Positions 16,626 to 46,300 of a stretch of 55,374 nucleotides of DNA are shown piece by piece. The position numbers were made by a program, and so were the translations under genes. The stretch is taken from NCBI GenBank assembly GCA_009773355.1, contig WRPG01000031.1, positions 1 to 55,374 on the forward strand, read 5' to 3'. The stretch is from Limisphaerales bacterium (GTDB taxonomy: Bacteria > Verrucomicrobiota > Verrucomicrobiia > Limisphaerales > SXTU01). Each line of letters starts with the position of its first letter. Positions within the stretch are counted from its first letter, which is position 1. Below the pieces are notes generated by a model that saw only the letters and a list, made by a program, of their open reading frames with translations, searched no databases and was not told where the DNA came from.

Positions 16626-16701
16626 GGAGCGCGGACGCCCACGTCCGCAGCCGCAGCCGAAGGCCAAGTCGCACGATTGCGGACGTGGGCGTCCGCGCTC
16701 C
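16626..16701. repeat. GGAG-headed inverted repeat pair (BIME-like)
   Basis: Two arms of 23 bases (16626-16648 and 16679-16701) are perfect inverted copies: GGAGCGCGGACGCCCACGTC then CGC. Each arm has an internal hairpin GCGGACG/CGTCCGC. It occupies the 147-base spacer between the two hydrolase genes. Confidence 0.88.
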
Positions 16702-16758: not shown

Positions 16759-17556
16759 ATGAACCTCCGCACCTTCACCCTCTCACTCTGCGCCGCCGCG
16801 CTCGCGCCCACCGCTGCCCGTGCCCAAGACGCGCTTCCCCGCACCGCCGAGACCTTCGAGGTCGGCGGGCACAAGGCCTTCCTCTACGCCGCGCCCAAAC
16901 CCGCCGAGGGCAAGCCGTGGGTGTGGTATGCGCCGACGCTCGGGGGCGTTTCGATCGTCCAGCGGAAGCTCTACTTCGAGAGCTTCATGAAGGCGGGCAT
17001 CAGCATCGCGGGCTTCGACCTCGGCGAAGTGCGCGGCTCGCCAGCCAGCACGGCGAAGTTCACCCTCTTTTACGACGACATGGTCCGTCGCGGGTGGTCG
17101 CCCAAGCCCATCCTGCTTGGCCAGAGCCGCGGCGGCATGATGACGCTCGCGTGGGCGTTCCGGCATCCGGACAAGGTGCGCGCGTGGGTGGGCATCTATC
17201 CCGTGTGCAACCTCGCGAGCTGGCCGTTGAAGAACTCGAAGGCACAGACGCTCGCCGACTTCGCCCTGCCCGAGGCCGAACTCGTGGCGAAGCTGAAGGA
17301 GTTCAACCCCGTGGACAACCTGCAAGGCCTGCTGGCGAACAAGGTGCCGATGTTCGCCGTGCATGGCGATTCCGACGCGGTGGTGCCCTACGCCGACAAC
17401 ACGCGCCTGCTGAAGGAGCGCTACGAAGCCGGCGGCGGCGCGATCACCGTGAAACTCATCCCCGGCGAAGGCCACAAGGTCGGCCCGTCGTTCTTCGAGT
17501 GCCGGGAGCTGGTGGACTTCGTGCTGAAACAACTCCCGCCCGCGCCGAAGAAGTGA
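16759..17556 (+). CDS. Secreted alpha/beta hydrolase
   Basis: 265 residues with signal peptide MNLRTFTLSLCAAALAPTAARAQ. The nucleophile elbow is GQSRGG, the acid loop HGDSDAVVP and the catalytic His GEGHKVG, in the expected order for a serine hydrolase of the prolyl-oligopeptidase/dienelactone-hydrolase type. The oxyanion region reads WYAPTLGGVS. No specific substrate can be assigned. It is the last plus-strand gene before the low-GC minus-strand island. Confidence 0.8.
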   Translation: MNLRTFTLSLCAAALAPTAARAQDALPRTAETFEVGGHKAFLYAAPKPAEGKPWVWYAPTLGGVSIVQRKLYFESFMKAGISIAGFDLGEVRGSPASTAKFTLFYDDMVRRGWSPKPILLGQSRGGMMTLAWAFRHPDKVRAWVGIYPVCNLASWPLKNSKAQTLADFALPEAELVAKLKEFNPVDNLQGLLANKVPMFAVHGDSDAVVPYADNTRLLKERYEAGGGAITVKLIPGEGHKVGPSFFECRELVDFVLKQLPPAPKK

Positions 17557-17710
17557 AGCGGCACCACGATCCGGCCTTCGATTTGGGCGTAAGACATGGG
17601 GTTAAGCGCTGTTGACGCTCAGGTTTCGCTCAATCATACTGTCGGCAAGTCGGACTGGAAATCTCCGGTCGGCGCTGGGCCTCTGGCAATGCTGGAGGCC
17701 CTTCGCATTT

Positions 17711-18466
17711 TCAGGGAAACACTTTCAGTCCCCAGCCCTTCGCTTCGCCCGCCGGGCTCCGGCGGAACTTTCTCGCCACGATGTCATACGCACGGTTCGG
17801 CTGGCTGGGACGAAGCACCTTGATGCCGACAGAGCGCGCCACCAGGTCCGCAATCTGCAAGCCGGTCGAGTTCGATGCCTTCGGAATCATCACCAGCTCA
17901 AACGGGAGGCGCTGGTTGAGCGCATTTGCCCCGGCGCAAATCCGCCGGAACGCCAGCTCAAGCTGGTTGTCCTCCTTCTCGCCGCGCTTCTCGACGATGA
18001 TGTGTGTGATTTTGCCTGCCTGGCCACGGCTGTTTAGTTCGAGGAAGATTCGTTCCAGGCCGAACTCCAGCGCCAGGTCGTAGGGATTCGCCGGCAGCGC
18101 ATACTGCTGGGCAAACTCCAGCTTGCGGATGACCGCCGCCACCAGTTGGAACTGCGCTTCGTCCACCAGCTTGCTCACTGCGTCCAGGAACTCCGTCCGC
18201 TTGGCCGGGTCGAACAGAAAGCCGTAGCTCTTGTTCGGCTTCCGAATCTCATGCTCGTGCAACACCTGCTCGTCGTGACCCCAAAACCGAAACTTCAAGC
18301 GCTGCAAAGCCGGGCCGACGCGGTCCACATAGTCGGCTTTTGCGAACAGGCAGAACGCCAGCACGAAGATGGGATAGCCGGGGTCAACGCGTGCCAGCCC
18401 GTGGTCGCCGCTCTCGTCCACGAAGACGAGGTAGTCGCCGAAGGCGTCGGGATTGGGCAGGCTCAT
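17711..18466 (-). CDS. DUF3800 family protein, putative RNase-H-fold nuclease
   Basis: 251 residues. The family opening YLVFVDESGDHG is present (Asp17-Glu18-Ser19-Gly20-Asp21), and the C-terminal STGLQIADLVA motif holds a conserved Asp at about 207; an EKRGEKEDNQ stretch lies between. DUF3800 proteins are predicted to have an RNase-H-like fold with these acidic residues forming an active site, and are frequently found in mobile or defence-linked neighbourhoods; biochemical activity is not established. It follows the DAC-like gene on the same strand with 101 bases between, so the two probably form an operon. No membrane segment or signal peptide, so cytoplasmic. Confidence 0.85.
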   Translation of the reverse strand: MSLPNPDAFGDYLVFVDESGDHGLARVDPGYPIFVLAFCLFAKADYVDRVGPALQRLKFRFWGHDEQVLHEHEIRKPNKSYGFLFDPAKRTEFLDAVSKLVDEAQFQLVAAVIRKLEFAQQYALPANPYDLALEFGLERIFLELNSRGQAGKITHIIVEKRGEKEDNQLELAFRRICAGANALNQRLPFELVMIPKASNSTGLQIADLVARSVGIKVLRPSQPNRAYDIVARKFRRSPAGEAKGWGLKVFP

Positions 18467-18567
18467 CGCGAATGTTCAAGGCGCGCCCAATCAAGCCCCA
18501 CGAACAACCCGATGGCGGGCAGCTCGACAAGCTTGTCTTCGGGGCAGGTGTGGGGCAAAGCAAGTTC

Positions 18568-19803
18568 CTACATCACAATGAATTTGGGTTCTTCGTTGCC
18601 ATCGTGAAATCCGGTAATCCCCCCATCTTGGGACACTTTGATTCCCACGCCGAGGCTACTCAGTGCCTGCGCGGCGGCAAGTCGGCCGCCGCCAGTGCTT
18701 CCACCTGGGATTTTTAGAATCGCGCCCACCGCCAAAATTGTTCCCTTGTGGTCGATGAGAGTAGCGCCGTCGATTGCAACCATCTCCTGTCTCAATCGAC
18801 GGTCGAGGTTTTGGAACTTCCTTGTTCCGACCACAGGCGCGAGGAACTTAGTCTTCACTGATTGAGCCGGATGCATATGGTCTTTCTCAGAAACCGCTAT
18901 GTCCCGCCAGTCTTGGGCGTGATTACTGATTACGACGCCAATGCACGCGCCGGTCCGCGCGAATGATGCATCGAGGCAAGTTTCATAGACTGCGCGTCGC
19001 ACAGCCTGATTATCGGGTCGGCCCATCTGCGTAATGACGGGAGCGTGAGTGAGGAAGTGCCATTGGCCACCACGCCGCGCGAACCGAAGTTCTTTGTCCC
19101 TGAAGATAAGAATTTCACCGGCTCGATTCAGGACCAAGGCGATTCGACCATCTGTTGCCCATCCTGCAACTGTGCCCAAACGATATGGGGCAAATTGTGG
19201 CGCAGTTGCCGGAGTGCCGAGCGTTTCGTGCCCGAGCACTTGCCCCTTGAAGTTGCACGTCAAGAGGGTGTCAAAACCGTTTGAAACCACTGCACTGAAA
19301 CCTTCGTGACACATCTCCTGAAATGACACCGCCCCAGTAAAATCACCGGGAAGGAAACCGACGGCGGCTGGTATGGGCTTACCTTCGTATTGTTGTCCGC
19401 CCCAAGCTGAGAGCTGGTCGATTGCGGCCAGCACAGCCTCTTCCTCTTCTTTGTTGCCACAAAGGGCTTTAGCAACAACTCGCCGCGGAAACGTCGCTCT
19501 CAAATCTGCCTGATACCATGAGGTCAGGCCATTCTTCATGCCTTTGACCACCTTAACGAAAGCCTCGACCACATCGCTTTCCGTTACAGTCCCTGCGTTC
19601 ACCCTCTCAAACGGCTGACTTCGACGAAGGACGAGGCGATACGTATCCTTTCTTTCAGCCTTAAAATGCAGCGTGCATGGGTCAGCTAACCCGACGAGTG
19701 CCTCTCTCGTCGTGGAGGAGGCGCTTTCTTGCTGGAGTTTCGCGCCAGAAATAAGTGGCTCTAGGAAGTCTGAGGCGAGTGTGTGGAGTTGCGTTTTATC
19801 CAT
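18568..19803 (-). CDS. Divergent DisA_N/diadenylate-cyclase-like (DAC) domain protein
   Basis: 411 residues. The C-terminal third resembles DAC nucleotidyl cyclases: GRIALVLNRAGEILIFRDKE, then AVRRAVYETCLDASFARTGA, then IDGATLIDHKGTILAVGAIL with the DGA motif at 345-347. The second DAC motif, canonically GxRHR, appears as GGGRLAAAQALS at 371-382, followed by VGIKVSQDGGITGF. So DGA is kept but the RHR triad is altered, which suggests an atypical or degenerate cyclase, or a nucleotide-binding sensor. Residues 1-200 form an N-terminal region I do not recognise. GC is clearly lower than its neighbours (29 of 60 at 19081-19140 against 42 of 60 at 17101-17160), suggesting transfer. It is upstream of the DUF3800 gene on the same strand. 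Confidence 0.72.
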   Translation of the reverse strand: MDKTQLHTLASDFLEPLISGAKLQQESASSTTREALVGLADPCTLHFKAERKDTYRLVLRRSQPFERVNAGTVTESDVVEAFVKVVKGMKNGLTSWYQADLRATFPRRVVAKALCGNKEEEEAVLAAIDQLSAWGGQQYEGKPIPAAVGFLPGDFTGAVSFQEMCHEGFSAVVSNGFDTLLTCNFKGQVLGHETLGTPATAPQFAPYRLGTVAGWATDGRIALVLNRAGEILIFRDKELRFARRGGQWHFLTHAPVITQMGRPDNQAVRRAVYETCLDASFARTGACIGVVISNHAQDWRDIAVSEKDHMHPAQSVKTKFLAPVVGTRKFQNLDRRLRQEMVAIDGATLIDHKGTILAVGAILKIPGGSTGGGRLAAAQALSSLGVGIKVSQDGGITGFHDGNEEPKFIVM

Positions 19804-19960: not shown

Positions 19961-21094
19961 ATGAATCCCGCGCTGTTCCTGATTTGCTCCGCCCTGCTGT
20001 TGGCCCCGACCCGCGCCGCCGAGCTTCCACCGATGCTGAACCTGCCCGACACCGGCGGGGACGTGGCGAAGATTGATTTTGCGAAGCTGCCGGTGTTGAA
20101 GGGCCAGCACGCGGTGGTGTGCCCGTATGAGGAGGCTTGGAAGTTCCAGCTTCACAATTACCTGCTGCACCACGAGGGGAAGTTCTGGTGTATGTGGAGC
20201 GCGGGGCCGGTGGTTGAGGACGTGCCCACGCAGCATGTCCGCTACGCGACAAGCGCGGACGGCCTGTCGTGGAGCGCGCCGAAGAATCTTACGGGAATGC
20301 CGGCGGAGGGCCGGGCCTACATCGCGCGCGGGTTCTGTGTTCGGGACGGCGAGCTGCTGGCGCTGGCGGCCAGTTACCGGGGCAAGGGCGCGTTCGGCGT
20401 GGACAAGGATTTGAAGCTCGTGGCCTTCCGCTGGGACAAGGCGCGCGACGCGTGGACGCAGAAGGCGGTCGTCTTTGAAAACGCCATCAACAACTTCGCG
20501 CCGCAGCAGCTCTCGACGGGCGAGTGGATGATGACCCGGCGGGATGCGCGCTTCAACGTGTCCATGCTCGTCGGCGGCGTGAAGTCGCTCACGGACTGGC
20601 AGGTCGTCCCCGTGGTGGACCGGCTGGCGGCGGTGCGGACTTCGAAATTCAGCCCCGACGAACCGGTGTGGTGGGAACTGGCGGATGGCACGCTGATGTC
20701 GGCCATTCGCGACAATGGCGGGTCGCAGCGGTTGTTCCGCTCGGTCTCGACGGACCACGGGCGCACCTGGAGCAAGCCGGAGATTTCGAACTACCCGAAC
20801 TCGACCAGCAAGCTGTTCACGTTGCAGACGAGCCGGGGCTTCCGGGTGCTCGTCTCGAATGCCAATCCGGCCGTGGGCCGGCGTGAGCTGCATCTGGCCG
20901 TCTCCGACGATGGGAAGCAGTTCACCCGCCTGGCCCGGCTGGGCATTCCCTCGCCCCGCGCGACGACCTTTCAGTATCCGCACGTCATCGAGCACGACGG
21001 CAGCCTCTTCATCGCCTTCTCGAACAAGAAGAACGTCACCGAGGTGCTGAAAGTGCCGCTGGCCGAGGTGGAAAAGCTTCGCAGCGCGCGGTGA
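19961..21094 (+). CDS. Secreted sialidase-like BNR-repeat protein
   Basis: 377 residues with a signal peptide MNPALFLICSALLLAPTRAA. A beta-propeller follows with BNR/Asp-box-like segments VRYATSADGLSWSAP, VSTDHGRTWSKPE and AVSDDGKQFT, and an AFSNKKNVTEV end common in exo-sialidase-like families. It has no cystatin part, unlike the related gene at 14046. The catalytic Arg triad and Tyr of true sialidases cannot be assigned with certainty from inspection, so it may act on another sugar. ATG 19961 directly precedes the signal peptide. It starts a plus-strand run with the ceramidase-like, MFS and NanA-like genes. Confidence 0.78.
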   Translation: MNPALFLICSALLLAPTRAAELPPMLNLPDTGGDVAKIDFAKLPVLKGQHAVVCPYEEAWKFQLHNYLLHHEGKFWCMWSAGPVVEDVPTQHVRYATSADGLSWSAPKNLTGMPAEGRAYIARGFCVRDGELLALAASYRGKGAFGVDKDLKLVAFRWDKARDAWTQKAVVFENAINNFAPQQLSTGEWMMTRRDARFNVSMLVGGVKSLTDWQVVPVVDRLAAVRTSKFSPDEPVWWELADGTLMSAIRDNGGSQRLFRSVSTDHGRTWSKPEISNYPNSTSKLFTLQTSRGFRVLVSNANPAVGRRELHLAVSDDGKQFTRLARLGIPSPRATTFQYPHVIEHDGSLFIAFSNKKNVTEVLKVPLAEVEKLRSAR

Positions 21095-21112
21095 TTCCGG
21101 CAGACTGCGCGC

Positions 21113-22552
21113 ATGAACCCGTTGACGAAGCGCTTCATCGTGGCCGCGTGGCTCGTCGCTTCACTGCTGACGGCCAGCGCTGCTGAGTTCCGCTTCGGCG
21201 CGGCCACGGTGGACATCACGCCGGACAAACCCGTGGCGCTCGACGGCCAGCGCAACGTGCGCATCTCGCGGACACCGGAGACGCCCATCAGCGCCACAGC
21301 ACTCGCGCTGGAATCGCGCGAGGGTGACAGGGTGGTTGACCAGGCGATTATTGTGTCGTGCGACCTCGTGGCGATCCGCGACGGAATTTTGCAGCAGGTC
21401 CGCGCCAAGGTGCAGCCGCAGTTGAAGGATTTCGACGCGCGCAAGTTGTTCCTCAGTGCCACGCACACGCACACCGCGCCGGTGACGCAGGAGGGCCGTT
21501 ACAATTTGCCGCCGGACATCATGCAGCCCACCGAATACGCCGAGTGGATGACGACGCGCGTGGCGGACGTGATCGTCGAGGCGTGGCAGAAGCGCGCGCC
21601 GGGCAAGGTCGGCTGGGGGCAGGGCCAGGCGGTCGTCGCGCAGAACCGGCGCGCGGTCTATGCCGACAGCACGGCCGTCATGTTCGGGAAGACGGACAAT
21701 GACAAGTTCCGCGCCATCGAGGGCTACGAGGATCACAACCTGGAGGCGCTGTTTTTCTGGGACGCGCAGGACAAGCTCGTCGCCACCGCCATCAATGTGC
21801 CCTGCCCGTCGCAGGAAGTCGGCGGGCAGTCGCGCATCCACGCGGACTTCTGGCATCCGGTGCGCGAGCAGCTCCGCGCGCGTCACGGCACCGGGTTGAG
21901 CATCGTCGCGTGGAACGGTGCGGGCGGCGACCAGACCTCGCGCCTGATGTATGGCACCGCCGCTGACACGCGGATGCGCAAGCTGCGCGGGCTTTCCCGG
22001 TTGGAGGAAGTCGCGCGCCGCATCATCAACGGCTGGACCGAAGCATTCGACGCCGCGCAGCACGATAAGCATGCCAGCCCGGTGCTGCGCCACGTCGTGC
22101 GTGACCTGGCCCTGCCGTTGCGCGTGGTGACGGAGGCGGAGTTGGACCTGGCGCGCAAGGAGGCGGCCAAGTTTGCCAAGGATCCGAAACAGCGCTGGAA
22201 CTACAACTGGAACCAGTCCGTAGTGATGCGCCACGAACTCCAGAAGGCCGGCGACCCCGGCACGCAGAAGATGGAGCTGCACGCGCTGCGGCTGGGCGAC
22301 GTGGCGATTGCCTCGAACGAGTTTGAGCTGTTCACCGATTACGGCGTGCAGATGAAAGCGCGCAGCCCGGCGGTGCAGACGTTTGTCATCCAGCTCGCCG
22401 GTTCGAGCGGTTATCTGCCGTCGGAGCGCGCCGTGCGCGGCGGCGGTTACAGCGCCGTCATTCAGAGCAGCCGCGTTGGCCCGAAAGGCGGGCAGGCGCT
22501 CGTCGAGCACACGGTCGCCGCCCTCAAGGAGCTTTGGCCCGCCGCGAAATGA
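21113..22552 (+). CDS. Neutral/alkaline-ceramidase-like secreted hydrolase
   Basis: 479 residues, signal peptide MNPLTKRFIVAAWLVASLLTASA, then FGAATVDITPDKPV and LFLSATHTHTAPV, both characteristic of the neutral ceramidase N-terminal domain (HTH being zinc ligands). The canonical nucleophile motif NSGDVSPN is replaced by NGAGGDQTS, as in many Planctomycete/Verrucomicrobial homologues that are of unknown specificity. The C-terminal immunoglobulin-like domain of true ceramidases is not evident. Gap to the previous gene is 18 bases and to the MFS gene 4 bases, so it is in an operon. Ceramide or another amide or ester is possible; the name reflects fold only. Confidence 0.83.
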   Translation: MNPLTKRFIVAAWLVASLLTASAAEFRFGAATVDITPDKPVALDGQRNVRISRTPETPISATALALESREGDRVVDQAIIVSCDLVAIRDGILQQVRAKVQPQLKDFDARKLFLSATHTHTAPVTQEGRYNLPPDIMQPTEYAEWMTTRVADVIVEAWQKRAPGKVGWGQGQAVVAQNRRAVYADSTAVMFGKTDNDKFRAIEGYEDHNLEALFFWDAQDKLVATAINVPCPSQEVGGQSRIHADFWHPVREQLRARHGTGLSIVAWNGAGGDQTSRLMYGTAADTRMRKLRGLSRLEEVARRIINGWTEAFDAAQHDKHASPVLRHVVRDLALPLRVVTEAELDLARKEAAKFAKDPKQRWNYNWNQSVVMRHELQKAGDPGTQKMELHALRLGDVAIASNEFELFTDYGVQMKARSPAVQTFVIQLAGSSGYLPSERAVRGGGYSAVIQSSRVGPKGGQALVEHTVAALKELWPAAK

Positions 22553-39860: not shown

Positions 39861-40451
<591 letters not shown>

Positions 40452-41831
40452 ATGAAAACTGCGTCCTCCACTCCCACCGTTTCCCCCGTCACCCGCCGCA
40501 CGTTCCTCCGCACCGGCGCGGTGCTCACCACCGCCGTCGCCGCGCTCTCGCCCGCCGCGCGCGCGCAGACCAACGCCAACAGCAAGCTGCGCATCTATCA
40601 GATCGGCGTCGGCGGCATCGGCGGGCTGCAACGCAACGGCCTCAAGGACCACCCGCAGGTCGAATGGGCCGGCTTCTGCGACGTGGATTCCCGCGAGCTG
40701 GACAAAATCAAGAAGCAGCACCCGAACGCATGGACGGTGAAGGATTACCGCGAGGGTTTCGCCAAGCACGTCGCCAACTTCGACGCCGTCATCGTGGACA
40801 CTCCGGACTTCCACCACGCGCCGATGATGCTCACCGCGCTCCAGCACAAGAAGCACCTCTACGGCCAGAAGCCGCTCGTCCATCAGCTCTCGGAACTGCG
40901 CATGATGCGCGACGCGCTCGCCGCCCGGCCCGGCTCCATCACACAGATGGGCAACCAGCGCGCGTGCAACACCGGCCGCATGCAGGCCGTCGAGCTGCTG
41001 CGCAAGGGCCAGCTCGGCAAGCCCGTCGAGGCCCACGTCTGGACCGGCGGCGTCGCGCGCGGCACCTATTTCGGCGACCCGTGGGCGGATTACACCGCCG
41101 CCAAGCCCGTGCCCGACTACCTCGACTGGAACCTCTGGAACGGCCCGCTCACCAAGCCCCTGCCCTACAGCGAAGACCTCGCGCCGCGCCGCTGGCGTTC
41201 CTTCTGGGAAACCGGCGGCGGCCAGCTCGCCGACTGGGGCTGTCACCTGCTTGACCTCCTCTACTTCGCCTACGACCTCCCGTCGCCCGAAGCCGTCGTC
41301 ACGCACACGCCCAAGCCCTCGAACGCCAGCCACACCTCGCACAACCAGAGCACCCTCACCTACCCCGGCCGCGGCCAGTTCGCGCGCGACAAATTTGTCG
41401 TCCGCTACAACGACGACGCGATGCTGCCGTCCTTCGCCGCACTCGGCCTGCCGCCCATGAAGGTCGGCGCGAACCACACGATGGTCGTCTGCACCGAGGG
41501 CACGCTGCTGCTGGAGGCCAACGGCAAAATCACCGTCTTCCGCAAGGGCCAGGTTGTGGCGAACGAACCGATGCCCGAGACCACGCCGCACCACCACTGG
41601 AAGGACTGGGCCGACAACTGCCTCGGCGCGAAGAAGCATCTCTGGGCACCGTTGACCATCGGCTGGCGCATCACCGAGCCGGCGCTGCTGGCGGTGAAGG
41701 CCACGCGCTTCCCCGGCCAGGAACTCCGCTGGGACGGCGCGAACTTCCGCTTCACCAACCATGAGCAGGCCAACCAGGAAATCCTCAAGCGCACCTACCG
41801 CGAGGGTTTCGCGCCCCCCGCGATGGCGTGA
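40452..41831 (+). CDS. Gfo/Idh/MocA-family oxidoreductase, TAT-exported
   Basis: 459 residues. N-terminal twin-arginine signal VTRRTFLRTGAVLTTAVAAL with cleavage after AARAQ. Rossmann motif IYQIGVGGIGGLQRNG, then the active-site loop YGQKPLVHQLSE, in which the usual EKP motif reads QKP, and a C-terminal domain with WGCHLLDLLYFA, as in many Verrucomicrobial secreted family members. Distinct from the family member at 5792. Substrate unknown. A strong palindrome follows the stop directly. It is divergent from glnK, so not part of nitrogen control by operon. Confidence 0.88.
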   Translation: MKTASSTPTVSPVTRRTFLRTGAVLTTAVAALSPAARAQTNANSKLRIYQIGVGGIGGLQRNGLKDHPQVEWAGFCDVDSRELDKIKKQHPNAWTVKDYREGFAKHVANFDAVIVDTPDFHHAPMMLTALQHKKHLYGQKPLVHQLSELRMMRDALAARPGSITQMGNQRACNTGRMQAVELLRKGQLGKPVEAHVWTGGVARGTYFGDPWADYTAAKPVPDYLDWNLWNGPLTKPLPYSEDLAPRRWRSFWETGGGQLADWGCHLLDLLYFAYDLPSPEAVVTHTPKPSNASHTSHNQSTLTYPGRGQFARDKFVVRYNDDAMLPSFAALGLPPMKVGANHTMVVCTEGTLLLEANGKITVFRKGQVVANEPMPETTPHHHWKDWADNCLGAKKHLWAPLTIGWRITEPALLAVKATRFPGQELRWDGANFRFTNHEQANQEILKRTYREGFAPPAMA

Positions 41832-42228: not shown

Positions 42229-43302
42229 TTACTCTTTGGAGGGCAGAGGGGGTTCCTTCAAGGGCAATTCTCTAACGAGCCAGTTTACAAACGACTCGGC
42301 CTCTGTTCGGTCTGACCATTCATCCAGCCGCTCCCGCCGACCGTCGCTCAACACCAGAGTTGCCGCGTAGCTCGGTGTGGATTCGCTGTCGCGGTTTTTA
42401 GGCCAGACTTCCTCAACTTCGGCTTGTGTGACTTGGTCGAAAGGAATCTTCGTTGGGGCTTTGCGCTCGAATGTGGCCGGCAGCGTCAGCACTCGACTGT
42501 CAGTTTCCAAAACCAAGTCATACCACCCCCGCTTCAGCTTGCTGTGCGTGTAGAGATAGGCCGCCAATCCACCGCCGACTACCAGCGCGAGCGCGATGCT
42601 GCTTGTGATGAGATCGGGGGCCATCCCTGTGGCGAAGCCGACGAGCAACGACAACACAAACGCAATCACGGACGAGACACCTCCACCAGCCACGGCGGGC
42701 GGACAGCGTGGTAGAGAGACAATGACCTTGCCGCCGCGCACGAACGATTCCACTCCGCCGGATTGAGCGAGAAGCCGCTGCCGCTTACGAATGTAGACTC
42801 CGGAACCCCACAGCCCGAGCATCACCGCGTTGAAAGGAGTCAGGAAAACGAGCCCAAACAACTCTCCGCCGTCGAAGCCCCGGCGCAGAACCGCCCGCGC
42901 GGGATTGCCCCGCTGGTAATACACCGTGACCTCCTTGCCGACCGGATGTTCATTGACCACGCTTCGCGCGCGCCGACTGCCGCTCGTGGAGCTCGGACAG
43001 AATTGGTAGTTGGTGCCGTGGTAAATCCCTTCCCCAACCGAATATCTGAAATGGACCACCGGCTGGTAAGTGTTGCCGTCGGAATCCCGCCTCACTTTCA
43101 GTTCACTGTGGGTCACCAGTCCGGTCGTTGATTGGAAGCTGAAAGCCCACAACCGCATAGTCACTGATTGGGCGATGAAGAAATCCCCAACCAGTGTAAT
43201 GGCCGACCAGAACACGGCGAAGCAAACCAGACCAGTGTTGAAGGCGGGTTTCACCGAGCCGTTTCTACCATTGGGTTTCTGCGGCTGAAAGCCGTGATTC
43301 AT
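42229..43302 (-). CDS. DUF3592-domain membrane protein
   Basis: 357 residues. Two hydrophobic regions near the N-terminus and middle (LVCFAVFWSAITLVGDFFIAQ, LFGLVFLTPFNAVMLGLWGSG) and two more around VSSVIAFVLSLLVGFATG and SSIALALVVGGGLAAYLY. Between the first two lies the DUF3592 pattern TGLVTHSELKVRRDSDGNTY, PVVHFRYSVG and GKEVTVYYQRGNPARAVL. The C-terminal part is cytoplasmic with a DGRRERLDEW strand. Function of the family is unknown. GC content is lower than that of the flanking giant haem genes, a mild sign of separate origin. Confidence 0.82.
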   Translation of the reverse strand: MNHGFQPQKPNGRNGSVKPAFNTGLVCFAVFWSAITLVGDFFIAQSVTMRLWAFSFQSTTGLVTHSELKVRRDSDGNTYQPVVHFRYSVGEGIYHGTNYQFCPSSTSGSRRARSVVNEHPVGKEVTVYYQRGNPARAVLRRGFDGGELFGLVFLTPFNAVMLGLWGSGVYIRKRQRLLAQSGGVESFVRGGKVIVSLPRCPPAVAGGGVSSVIAFVLSLLVGFATGMAPDLITSSIALALVVGGGLAAYLYTHSKLKRGWYDLVLETDSRVLTLPATFERKAPTKIPFDQVTQAEVEEVWPKNRDSESTPSYAATLVLSDGRRERLDEWSDRTEAESFVNWLVRELPLKEPPLPSKE

Positions 43303-43386
43303 GCCTCTTTGAGTCAGGCAGCAACCCTTTCCCGCGTTGACCCCACCCGACTGCTCCGCTTCACTCTGCCCCCTGTTGCTCTGACC

Positions 43387-46300
43387 ATGAAACTCAAGTT
43401 CCTCCTCGCCGCGTTCCTCGCCAGCTTCGCCCTCACTTCACCTGCCGCCGCGCCAAAGCCGCTCCGTGTCCTGCTCTTCGCCGGCGGTTGCTGCCACGAC
43501 TACGCCGTCCAGCACCTCATTCTCAAGGAGGGCCTCGAAGCCCGCGCGCACGTCGAGGTGGACGCGATTCATTCCTTCGACCGCAGCACGCGCGTGACCT
43601 TCGCGCCCTACGAGAAGCCCGATTGGGCCAAGGGCTACGATGTCATCGTCCACGACGAGTGCAGCGCCGATGTGAAGGACGTGGCTTACGTGAACAACAT
43701 CCTCGCTGCGCACCGTGCCGGCATCCCCGCCGTGAATCTCCACTGCGCGATGCACAGCTACCGCGTCGGCAACATCAGCCAGCCCGTCGTGCCCGGCTCG
43801 CCGGACGCGCTGTGGTTCGACCTCCTCGGCCTCCAGTCCACCGGCCACGGCCCGCAGGAGCCGATTCAGCTCACGACCGTCGCGAAGGCCCACCCCATCA
43901 TGGCCGGCCTGCCCGAGTGGACCACGGGCAAAGAGGAGCTCTACAACAACGTCAAAATCTTCCCCTCCGCCACGCCGCTCGTGCGCGGCAAGCAGGTGCT
44001 CAAGCAAAAGGACGGCAGCGAGCGCGCCGTCGAGTCGGTGGTCACTTGGGTCAACGAATACGGCCCCGGCAAAACCCGCGTCTTCAGCAGCACCGTCGGC
44101 CACAACAACGCCACCGTCGCCGACCCGCGTTACCTCGACCTCGTCACGCGCGGCCTGCTCTGGTCGTGCGACAAGCTGAACCCGACCTTCCTTAAGCCCG
44201 CGACCACCGCGACCACCGAGCAGCAGCTCGCGAGCGCTTCGGCCAAAGCGAAGTTGCTCACGCCGCCGCCTACTCCGGCCAAACCTGCCGAGCCGGCCAA
44301 GCCCGTTGTCGTCGCGCCCATTGACGGTCGCCCGAATCTCGCCGTCGCTGGAACAGCGAAGGCCTCGAGCGAGGAATCCGGCAAGGGCAACTACGCGGGC
44401 AACGCGATTGACGGCGACCCCGGCACGCGCTGGTGCGCGGCGGGCGGCGGCCCCGGCCACACGTTCCAAGTGGACCTTGGCAAGGAGCAGAAAATCACCG
44501 GCGTTCACATCAACTGGGAGTCGAAGAACAACACCTACCGCTACCGTCTCGAAGCTTCCGCCGACGGTCAGCAATGGCAGCCGCTCGCCGACGCCGCGAA
44601 GAACGACCAGCCCGGCGCGACACAAAATGATTTCCCCGCCACGAGCACGCGGCACATCCGCCTGACTTACCTCGGCTCCACGCAAGGCGGCTGGGGCAGC
44701 TTCTGGGAGTTCGCCGCGCTCGGTGAGAAAGGCGCGGCCCAGCCGCAGCCCGCCGCGCCCGCCGCCGGCAAGAAAGGCAAGCAAGCCGCCGCCGCGAAGG
44801 AGCTGCCCATTCTCCCGTCCGTCGCCGACGTCGAGTGGATGAAACCCGTCACCGCCGAGAAAGTCGCCGGCATCCTCGCTGAAGTGAAAGCCGCCGAGGG
44901 CTTCGAGGTGAAAGTCTTCGCCACGCCGCCCGCCGTGAACTACCCGGTCTTCGTCGCCGCCGCAGCGGACGGCACGGTTTACGTTTCGAGCGATGGGAAC
45001 GGCTCGCTCGGCCGCCTGCCGAACCTCGGCCGCATCCTCCGCGTGCGCGACACGAACGGCGACGGAGAGGCCGACGAGGTGAAGGTCTTCGTGCCGAATG
45101 TGGATTCTCCGCGCGGCTTGCTCTGGGACCACGACCGCGTCATCTGCCTGCACCCGCCGCACGTCACCGCGTTCATTGACCGCGACGGCGACGGCCACGC
45201 GGACGAGACGAAGGTGCTCATCAAGAACATCGCGTTCGGCTTCAAGGACCGCCCGGCGGACCACACTTCCAACGGCATCGAGCTGGGCGTGGACGGCTGG
45301 ATTTACGCGGCCATCGGCGACTTCGGTTTCATGGAAGCCGAGGGCACGGACGGGCGCAAGCTTCAGCTCCGCGCCGGCGGCATCGTGCGATTCCGCCCGG
45401 ATGGCACGGGCCTGCACCTCTTCGCGCGCGGCACGCGGAACATCCTCGAAGCCGCCGTCAGCCCCGAGCTGGACAGCTTCGCGCGCGACAACACCAACGA
45501 CGGCGGCGGCTGGGACGTGCGCTTCCATCACTTCAGCGGGCTGGAGGAACACGGCTACCCGTCGCTCTACAAAAATTTCGCTGACGAACTCATCGCGCCG
45601 CTCGCGGACTACGGCGGCGGCTCCGGCTGCGGCGCGGCGTGGATTGCCGAGCCGGGCTTCTCCGCCGCGTGGGGCAACGCACCGTTCACTGCCGACTGGG
45701 GCCGCGGAGTCATCTACCGCCACGCGGTGAAAGCGAAAGGCGCGACCTTCGCCGAGACCGAGAAGCCCACCGAGTTCCTGAAGCTCACGCGCCCCACGGA
45801 CCTCGACGTGGACGCGTCGAGCCGCGTGTATGCCGCGAGCTGGAAAGGCGCGACGTTCAACTGGGCCGGCATGGACGTGGGCTACCTCGTGCGCGTGACG
45901 CCGAAGGGATTCAAGCCCGTCGCGCTCCCCGACTTTGCCAAGGCCAATGAAGGTGAGCTGCTGAAGCTGTTGCAGAATCCCAGCCACCGCATCCGCCTCG
46001 AAGCGCAGCGCACCATCCTGCACCGCGCCGGCAGTCGGCACGGCGGCATCCACGCCATCCGTGCTGACCTTCTGAAGCTGGCTGCGGACAAGTCCAAGCC
46101 GCTTGCGTCGCGCATCGTCGCGTTGTTCACTCTGCGGCTTGGCTCACAGTCGAGCAGCCTCGAGTCCATCGCCGGGCTGGTCTCCGACCGGACCATCGCT
46201 CCGTGGGCGTTGCGCGCACTCACCGACGACGAGCGGACGCTCGAGCAAGTCCCGGCCGCGCCCATCCTCGCCGCGCTCAAGTCCGAAGATGCCCGCACCC

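Follow-up and report, generated by a model that had tools for sequence, protein, structure and literature searches.

An orphaned hsdR start points to a type I restriction accessory slot as the likely source of a low-GC island with a divergent DAC-domain gene and a DUF3800 gene

The systems closest to the locus described here are accessory genes carried at type I restriction-modification (RM) loci. The PrrC nuclease is silenced by its linked type I enzyme and influenced by dTTP (PMC2610378, PMC12707154). In Geobacillus kaustophilus, rloC is flanked by an hsdR relic, which the authors interpret as a remnant of a formerly linked RM system (PMC2610378), and the TgvAB defence genes lie inside a type I RM operon and have proven anti-phage activity (PMC11411939). 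For DUF3800 proteins, an RNase-H fold and a linkage to Cas12a2 have been reported (PMC10910872).

Here we analysed a 55,374-nucleotide contig (WRPG01000031.1, hereafter the window) of a Limisphaerales bacterium, in which two adjacent minus-strand genes encode a DAC-like protein and a DUF3800 protein. An initial annotation had proposed that the two form a coupled module, in which a cyclase-like or nucleotide-sensing protein is joined to a nuclease-like effector, and that the pairing itself is the novel element. We find that the pair as such is ordinary and that the unit so called is wrong; a plausible but incorrect system call is thus corrected, and the more interesting result lies in the short hsdR starts that accompany such genes in related genomes.

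A restriction-gene relic between the two genes

The features of the island and its flank are as follows.

16759..17556, plus strand: alpha/beta-hydrolase-like gene flanking the island; in other genomes, different genes or none lie beside it
17573..17597, minus strand: second hsdR-start trace, ATGTCTTACGCCCAAATCGAAGG..., at the right-hand edge of the imported segment
17711..18466, minus strand: DUF3800 gene from the ORF list, 251 aa, matching PF12686; product predicted to be RNase-H-like
~18486..18558, minus strand: hsdR relic, its first 24 codons, reading LPHTCPEDKLVELPAIGLFVGLDW; 73 bases, starting 9 bases after the DAC-like stop
18568..19803, minus strand: DAC-like gene from the ORF list, 411 aa

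Both minus-strand ORFs were confirmed at these coordinates; they are intact and their motifs are conserved. The DUF3800 assignment is borne out by a PF12686 score of 61.9 bits against a cut-off of 21. The GC counts given earlier (29 of 60 and 42 of 60 bases) are exact, and the suggestion of an acquired low-GC island is supported by the composition of the DAC-like gene (54.7%) and the DUF3800 gene (61.8%) relative to the window (66.4%), as well as by a third-position GC of 0.56 in the DAC-like gene against 0.88-0.90 in the plus-strand genes at 16759-17556 and 21113-22552. Two more short low-GC stretches (0.56-0.58) occur at 40001-40500 and 43001-43500, and an intergenic perfect 24-nt inverted repeat with a 28-nt loop at 16626-16701 may be a terminator or a REP-like element.

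The gap between the two genes is exactly 101 bases long (18467-18567), as the initial annotation had stated; it is not empty and holds an hsdR start that was missed there. This relic matches the hsdR 5' ends of related genomes with 88% identity over 72 nt (E = 2e-19) at the DNA level, and one 45-residue HsdR head with an E-value of 6e-7 at the protein level. In the related genome G126, an intact HsdR of 1049 aa with HSDR_N, SWI2_SNF2, and T1R domains begins with this sequence; in the window the ATG start codon is now TTG. DNA homology with G126 and with a second related genome, G195, spans 18557 to 17573 and ends ~24 nt into the following hsdR-start copy in G195. Over this segment of 985 bp, comprising the relic and the DUF3800 gene, the window and G195 are 88% identical, and the 73-base stretch recurs several times in the G195 and G126 loci. 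No hsdM or hsdS trace remains in the window, so that of an hsd operon the hsdR relic alone is present. No second relic copy was found in the window's genome (assembly 95% complete), and the parent operon is therefore apparently absent there.

The flanking gene helps to define the insertion site. Homologues of the hydrolase gene are 80-90% identical in G012, G003, and G001 and 77% identical in G027. In G027, which lacks the island, the gene found at 21065-22552 of the window comes immediately after the hydrolase gene, and in G012 other genes occupy the island position beside the hydrolase.

The closest relatives of the DUF3800 protein are found in G195 (94% identical) and G126 (85%), and a search for DAC-like genes in these two genomes found nothing. 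Among five divergent DUF3800 members, D17, E18, Q204, and D207 are invariant in the alignment. The sequence comparison with G195 and G126 gives a dN/dS of 0.09-0.10, which indicates long-term constraint on the gene, not selection after its insertion. These observations bear on whether the island is non-functional debris in transit to loss. The reduction of hsdR to 24 codons with a TTG start would fit this reading, as would an in-frame stop in the DUF3800 gene of G195 and another in the DAC-like gene of the genome G1000, but in the window neither ORF is disrupted, their motifs are conserved, and the dN/dS is low, although it is a long-term measure. We regard debris as an improbable explanation.

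A search around both window genes against Rfam revealed no DUF3800-type RNA motif or other RNA above gathering thresholds. The window's genome carries a second DUF3800 gene (L049:376-5640, on contig C114 of G000), which is preceded by hsdM at a type I RM locus that looks intact. In the scar-bearing genomes described below, 10 of 24 DUF3800 loci adjoin type I RM genes against none of 20 control stretches of the same genomes, a comparison that is indicative, as the controls lay on shorter contigs and the genomes were chosen for carrying scars.

A dedicated two-component defence module, with the DAC-like protein as sensor or producer of a nucleotide signal and DUF3800 as its nuclease effector, would account for the common strand, the short gap, and the shared low-GC island, and both families do occur near defence genes. 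The proposed coupling had been made to depend on co-localisation in other genomes, and none of the ten other DAC-like loci (one of which, the faecal phage record, is a short fragment) adjoins a DUF3800 gene. Moreover, the nearest DUF3800 relatives lie in genomes in which no DAC-like gene was found, and the two window genes are separated by an hsdR relic that travels with DUF3800 alone in G195. We therefore give such a module almost no credence. Each gene is separately tied to type I RM operons; the adjacency is best explained by a shared operon slot instead of a functional partnership.

A family of DAC-domain proteins with a replaced RHR motif

The DAC-like protein comprises an unassigned N-terminal and middle region followed by a C-terminal divergent DisA_N/DAC domain (residues ~254-411). 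The window protein has no Pfam match at E<=1, so its assignment needed homologues. One of them, L047, passes PF02457 with 27.9 bits against a cut-off of 27.0, and a profile-profile comparison of the family with 29 DAC proteins of the window's class gave a probability of 96% and an E-value of 1e-9 over the region from DGA to the loop. The full-length model (pLDDT 46) was set aside, and structure searches were run on the C-terminal model alone (pLDDT 54). The sixteen best Foldseek rows were all DisA or CdaA/CdaM, each of them weak (E 0.15 or worse), and VIA on this low-confidence model reached a Z of 4.4 at most, with an rmsd of 4.2 over 100 residues. On this sequence and model evidence, we take the C-terminal half of the protein for a divergent DAC domain, in agreement with the initial annotation. 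Neither window protein had a match in PADLOC-DB at E<=1 or a sequence relative in the PDB at a meaningful E-value.

The RHR motif contacts the triphosphate in canonical DACs. In the window protein, GGGRLAAA occupies the position of GTRHRAA, and the DGA motif lies at D345-G346-A347, both as described before. DGA is invariant in alignments of seven and of eight members of the family, and the invariants of the eight aligned members include DGA, the G-x-R pattern, and then S-x-D-G. The RHR motif is replaced by GGGRLAAA or an equivalent in every member that has this region, which upholds its reported loss; the Paracoccus protein ends before the loop. The 29 DAC proteins of the class have (S/T)RHAAA where the family has GGRxAA. 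Proteins of ~455 aa with a DAC domain are themselves common in this class (L010-L038) and carry (S/T)RHAAA, not (S/T)RHRAA. From its motifs, the DAC-like protein is very probably devoid of canonical cyclase chemistry. An active cyclase whose product, c-di-AMP or a different cyclic dinucleotide, signals in defence would be consistent with the invariant DGA and the probable DAC fold, but the replacement of RHR throughout the family and the lack of any repeatedly linked signal-receptor gene make this highly unlikely.

Searches across genomes, plasmids, phages, and viral contigs turned up ten other DAC-like loci.

In named genera: Brevundimonas (51% identity), an Agrobacterium vitis plasmid, a Paracoccus plasmid, and a Vescimonas plasmid
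Further loci: a faecal phage record, an IMG/VR contig, and the alphaproteobacterium G704
In the window's order: G054, G1000, and G975

The family is rare, being present in 4 of 388 relatives of the window genome and in 2 of 385 genomes of the alphaproteobacterial class, one of which is the search centre itself. When plasmids and viruses were searched with diverged members or with the alignment, no further homologues emerged, and no description of DACNV-type proteins was found in the open-licence literature. The NCBIfam model DS2_3_antiphage matches six of seven members weakly (best E 4.9e-5); with the window protein the match is local, covers the DGA region only, and scores 14.6 bits against a cut-off of 630.

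The neighbourhoods of the DAC-like gene connect it to RM genes in several genomes. In G704 the gene order is hsdM, hsdS, DAC-like, and intact hsdR, with a junction of 16 nt to hsdR, and this operon adjoins a phage-type integrase. In G1000 the DAC-like gene lies directly between two hsdM genes, and in G975 a DAC-like 3' remnant is followed by an hsdM-start trace (22/22 nt). An RM gene or relic is thus next door in 4 of 11 loci (the window, G704, G1000, and G975), and the other 7 are without one; RM linkage of the DAC-like gene is frequent, not obligatory.

Other neighbours include a KAP NTPase resembling PDC-S20 on the viral contig and an ORF6N gene resembling PDC-S05. The Brevundimonas, Paracoccus, and Vescimonas loci have no recognised defence neighbour, and the Paracoccus gene sits among IS elements. 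In the Brevundimonas MAG (L001:6480-13404), the DAC-like gene stands by itself, with gatA on one side and, on the other, a glycoside-hydrolase-like gene and then gatB. Its A. vitis plasmid homologue (L004:7971-13771) is convergent with a complete four-gene type II CBASS operon. The earlier suggestion of a link to phage defence is supported.

These neighbourhoods leave room for a different account, in which the DAC-like gene is free-standing single-gene cargo of defence or mobile elements and its proximity to hsd genes reflects the clustering of defence islands only. The gene does occur beside type II CBASS, KAP NTPase, and ORF6N genes and alone among housekeeping genes, and the weak DS2_3_antiphage matches would agree with such a role. 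However, the gene is spaced as in an operon directly before intact hsdR in G704 and before hsdM in G1000, and start relics accompany it in the window and in G975, all of which speaks for a closer association with the RM operon. We hold the free-standing account to be possible rather than probable.

Arrays of hsdR-start scars in related genomes

Of 293 genomes of the order, 49 contain the hsdR start. In at least 22 of these 49, a single contig carries it more than once, each copy lying no more than ~3 kb from the next; this is a lower bound, as only three candidates were scored per genome, and the count includes one second copy from the survey of DUF3800 loci. In the 22 loci examined, all copies within a locus have one orientation, and the truncated starts lie on the same strand as the preceding cargo gene. 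The 5' edge of a scar is always the start codon; its 3' edge varies (28, 41, 45, 66, ~73 nt, and longer), in a picture of scar length that is biased by the query length of 73. Gaps between hsdS and hsdR that hold arrays of defence genes followed by truncated hsdR 5' ends are seen in L080 (G126), L079 (G195), and L114-L133. Two of these loci are laid out as follows.

L080, intact operon of G126: hsdM, hsdS, DUF3800, scar, Nmad3 gene, scar, Fic, scar, gene, hsdR
L079, G195: RT and nitrilase, then relic, DUF3800, relic, Fic

The cargo between scar copies and between hsdS and hsdR includes Gabija GajA and GajB in G085, SIR2 and HerA in G093, and DRT (RT UG5) with nitrilase, Fic, Nmad3-domain, PDC-S06-like, and AbiEii-like proteins elsewhere, with DUF3800 as cargo in G126, G195, G118, and G1006. 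In G195 (L079:1365-4318), a UG5-class defence RT, encoded as a small RT separate from its accompanying nitrilase, lies just upstream of an hsdR-start scar.

Two other interpretations of the repeat were considered. As the repeat forms a hairpin, it was first compared with an integron attC site; this reading was rejected, as the repeat translates as the HsdR N-terminus, its 3' truncation is variable, and no attC core was recognised in it. A fixed 73-base recombination site is not supported by the constant 5' edge and variable 3' edge. No description of hsdR-start scars was found in the open-licence literature.

Proposed origin and comparison with known systems

Placement inside RM operons is seen in homologues of both window genes: for the DAC-like gene in G704 and G1000, and for DUF3800 in G126 and on contig C114 of the window's own genome. 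We consider it very likely that the island originates from an accessory slot of a type I RM (hsd) operon, and likely that it is, as a whole, an orphaned relic of such a slot, whose two cargo genes are independent of each other. These genes would have been inserted successively, each upstream of hsdR, and each insertion may have brought a new hsdR start and truncated the old one. The segment would then have moved to its present locus, presumably by transfer, leaving behind hsdM, hsdS, and the main part of hsdR.

For the DAC-like protein, the motif pattern and the analogy to described accessory genes tentatively suggest a non-catalytic nucleotide-binding guard. The PrrC, G. kaustophilus rloC, and TgvAB precedents make such a role reasonable. 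Comparable in this to the accessory PrrC, a catalytically dead DAC might sense nucleotides and so guard the RM complex or signal infection, with growth arrest or enzyme control as its output. The DUF3800 protein would be a separate, RNase-H-like nuclease cargo.

A wider proposal, which we put forward as a speculation that may well fail, is that in this order the 5' end of hsdR (sometimes of hsdM) repeatedly serves as a landing site or an anchor for recombination, and that RM operons thereby gather and swap defence genes as cargo-plus-start modules, cassette-like without an integron; the window would be a relic of such an array and the DAC-like gene would represent a new family of RM-coupled nucleotide sensors. 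The scar arrays are the most interesting result of this analysis. The short scars appear to record the entry of defence genes into restriction operons and could help to find unknown defence genes, the candidates being all genes that lie between hsdS and an hsdR start of truncated form. The RHR-less DAC-domain proteins with links to type I restriction make up a small new family and, as candidate guards of the restriction complex, also merit follow-up.

The likenesses to known systems are partial in each case. DisA and CdaA/DacA (PF02457) resemble the DAC-like protein in the probable C-terminal fold, the DGA motif, and the position of the GxR..AA loop, whereas the latter has RHR replaced and another N-terminal architecture. 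The Cas12a2-linked DUF3800 protein (PMC10910872) and that of the window are both RNase-H-like companions of defence nuclease systems, but the host system here is a type I RM operon and there is no fused TPR domain. Integron gene-cassette arrays share with the scar arrays one gene per repeat, the same orientation, and modular cargo exchange, whereas the scar-array repeat is an hsdR coding start with variable 3' truncation and no recognised attC core. Like PrrC in the type Ic EcoprrI operon, the DAC-like gene is an accessory gene that can be embedded in type I RM operons; PrrC, a dTTP-responsive guard of the RM complex, is an ABC-ATPase and anticodon nuclease with no known domain in common with the DAC-like protein. 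TgvAB and, by their probable origin, the genes of the window are both defence-type cargo of a type I RM operon, but TgvAB consists of two cooperating genes of a type IV family, and on present evidence those of the window do not cooperate. Finally, the rlo genes of Campylobacter jejuni and rloC of G. kaustophilus are, like the genes of the window, cargo at hsd loci; in G. kaustophilus a single C-terminal hsdR relic is found, whereas here short 5' starts follow the cargo and form arrays in many genomes.
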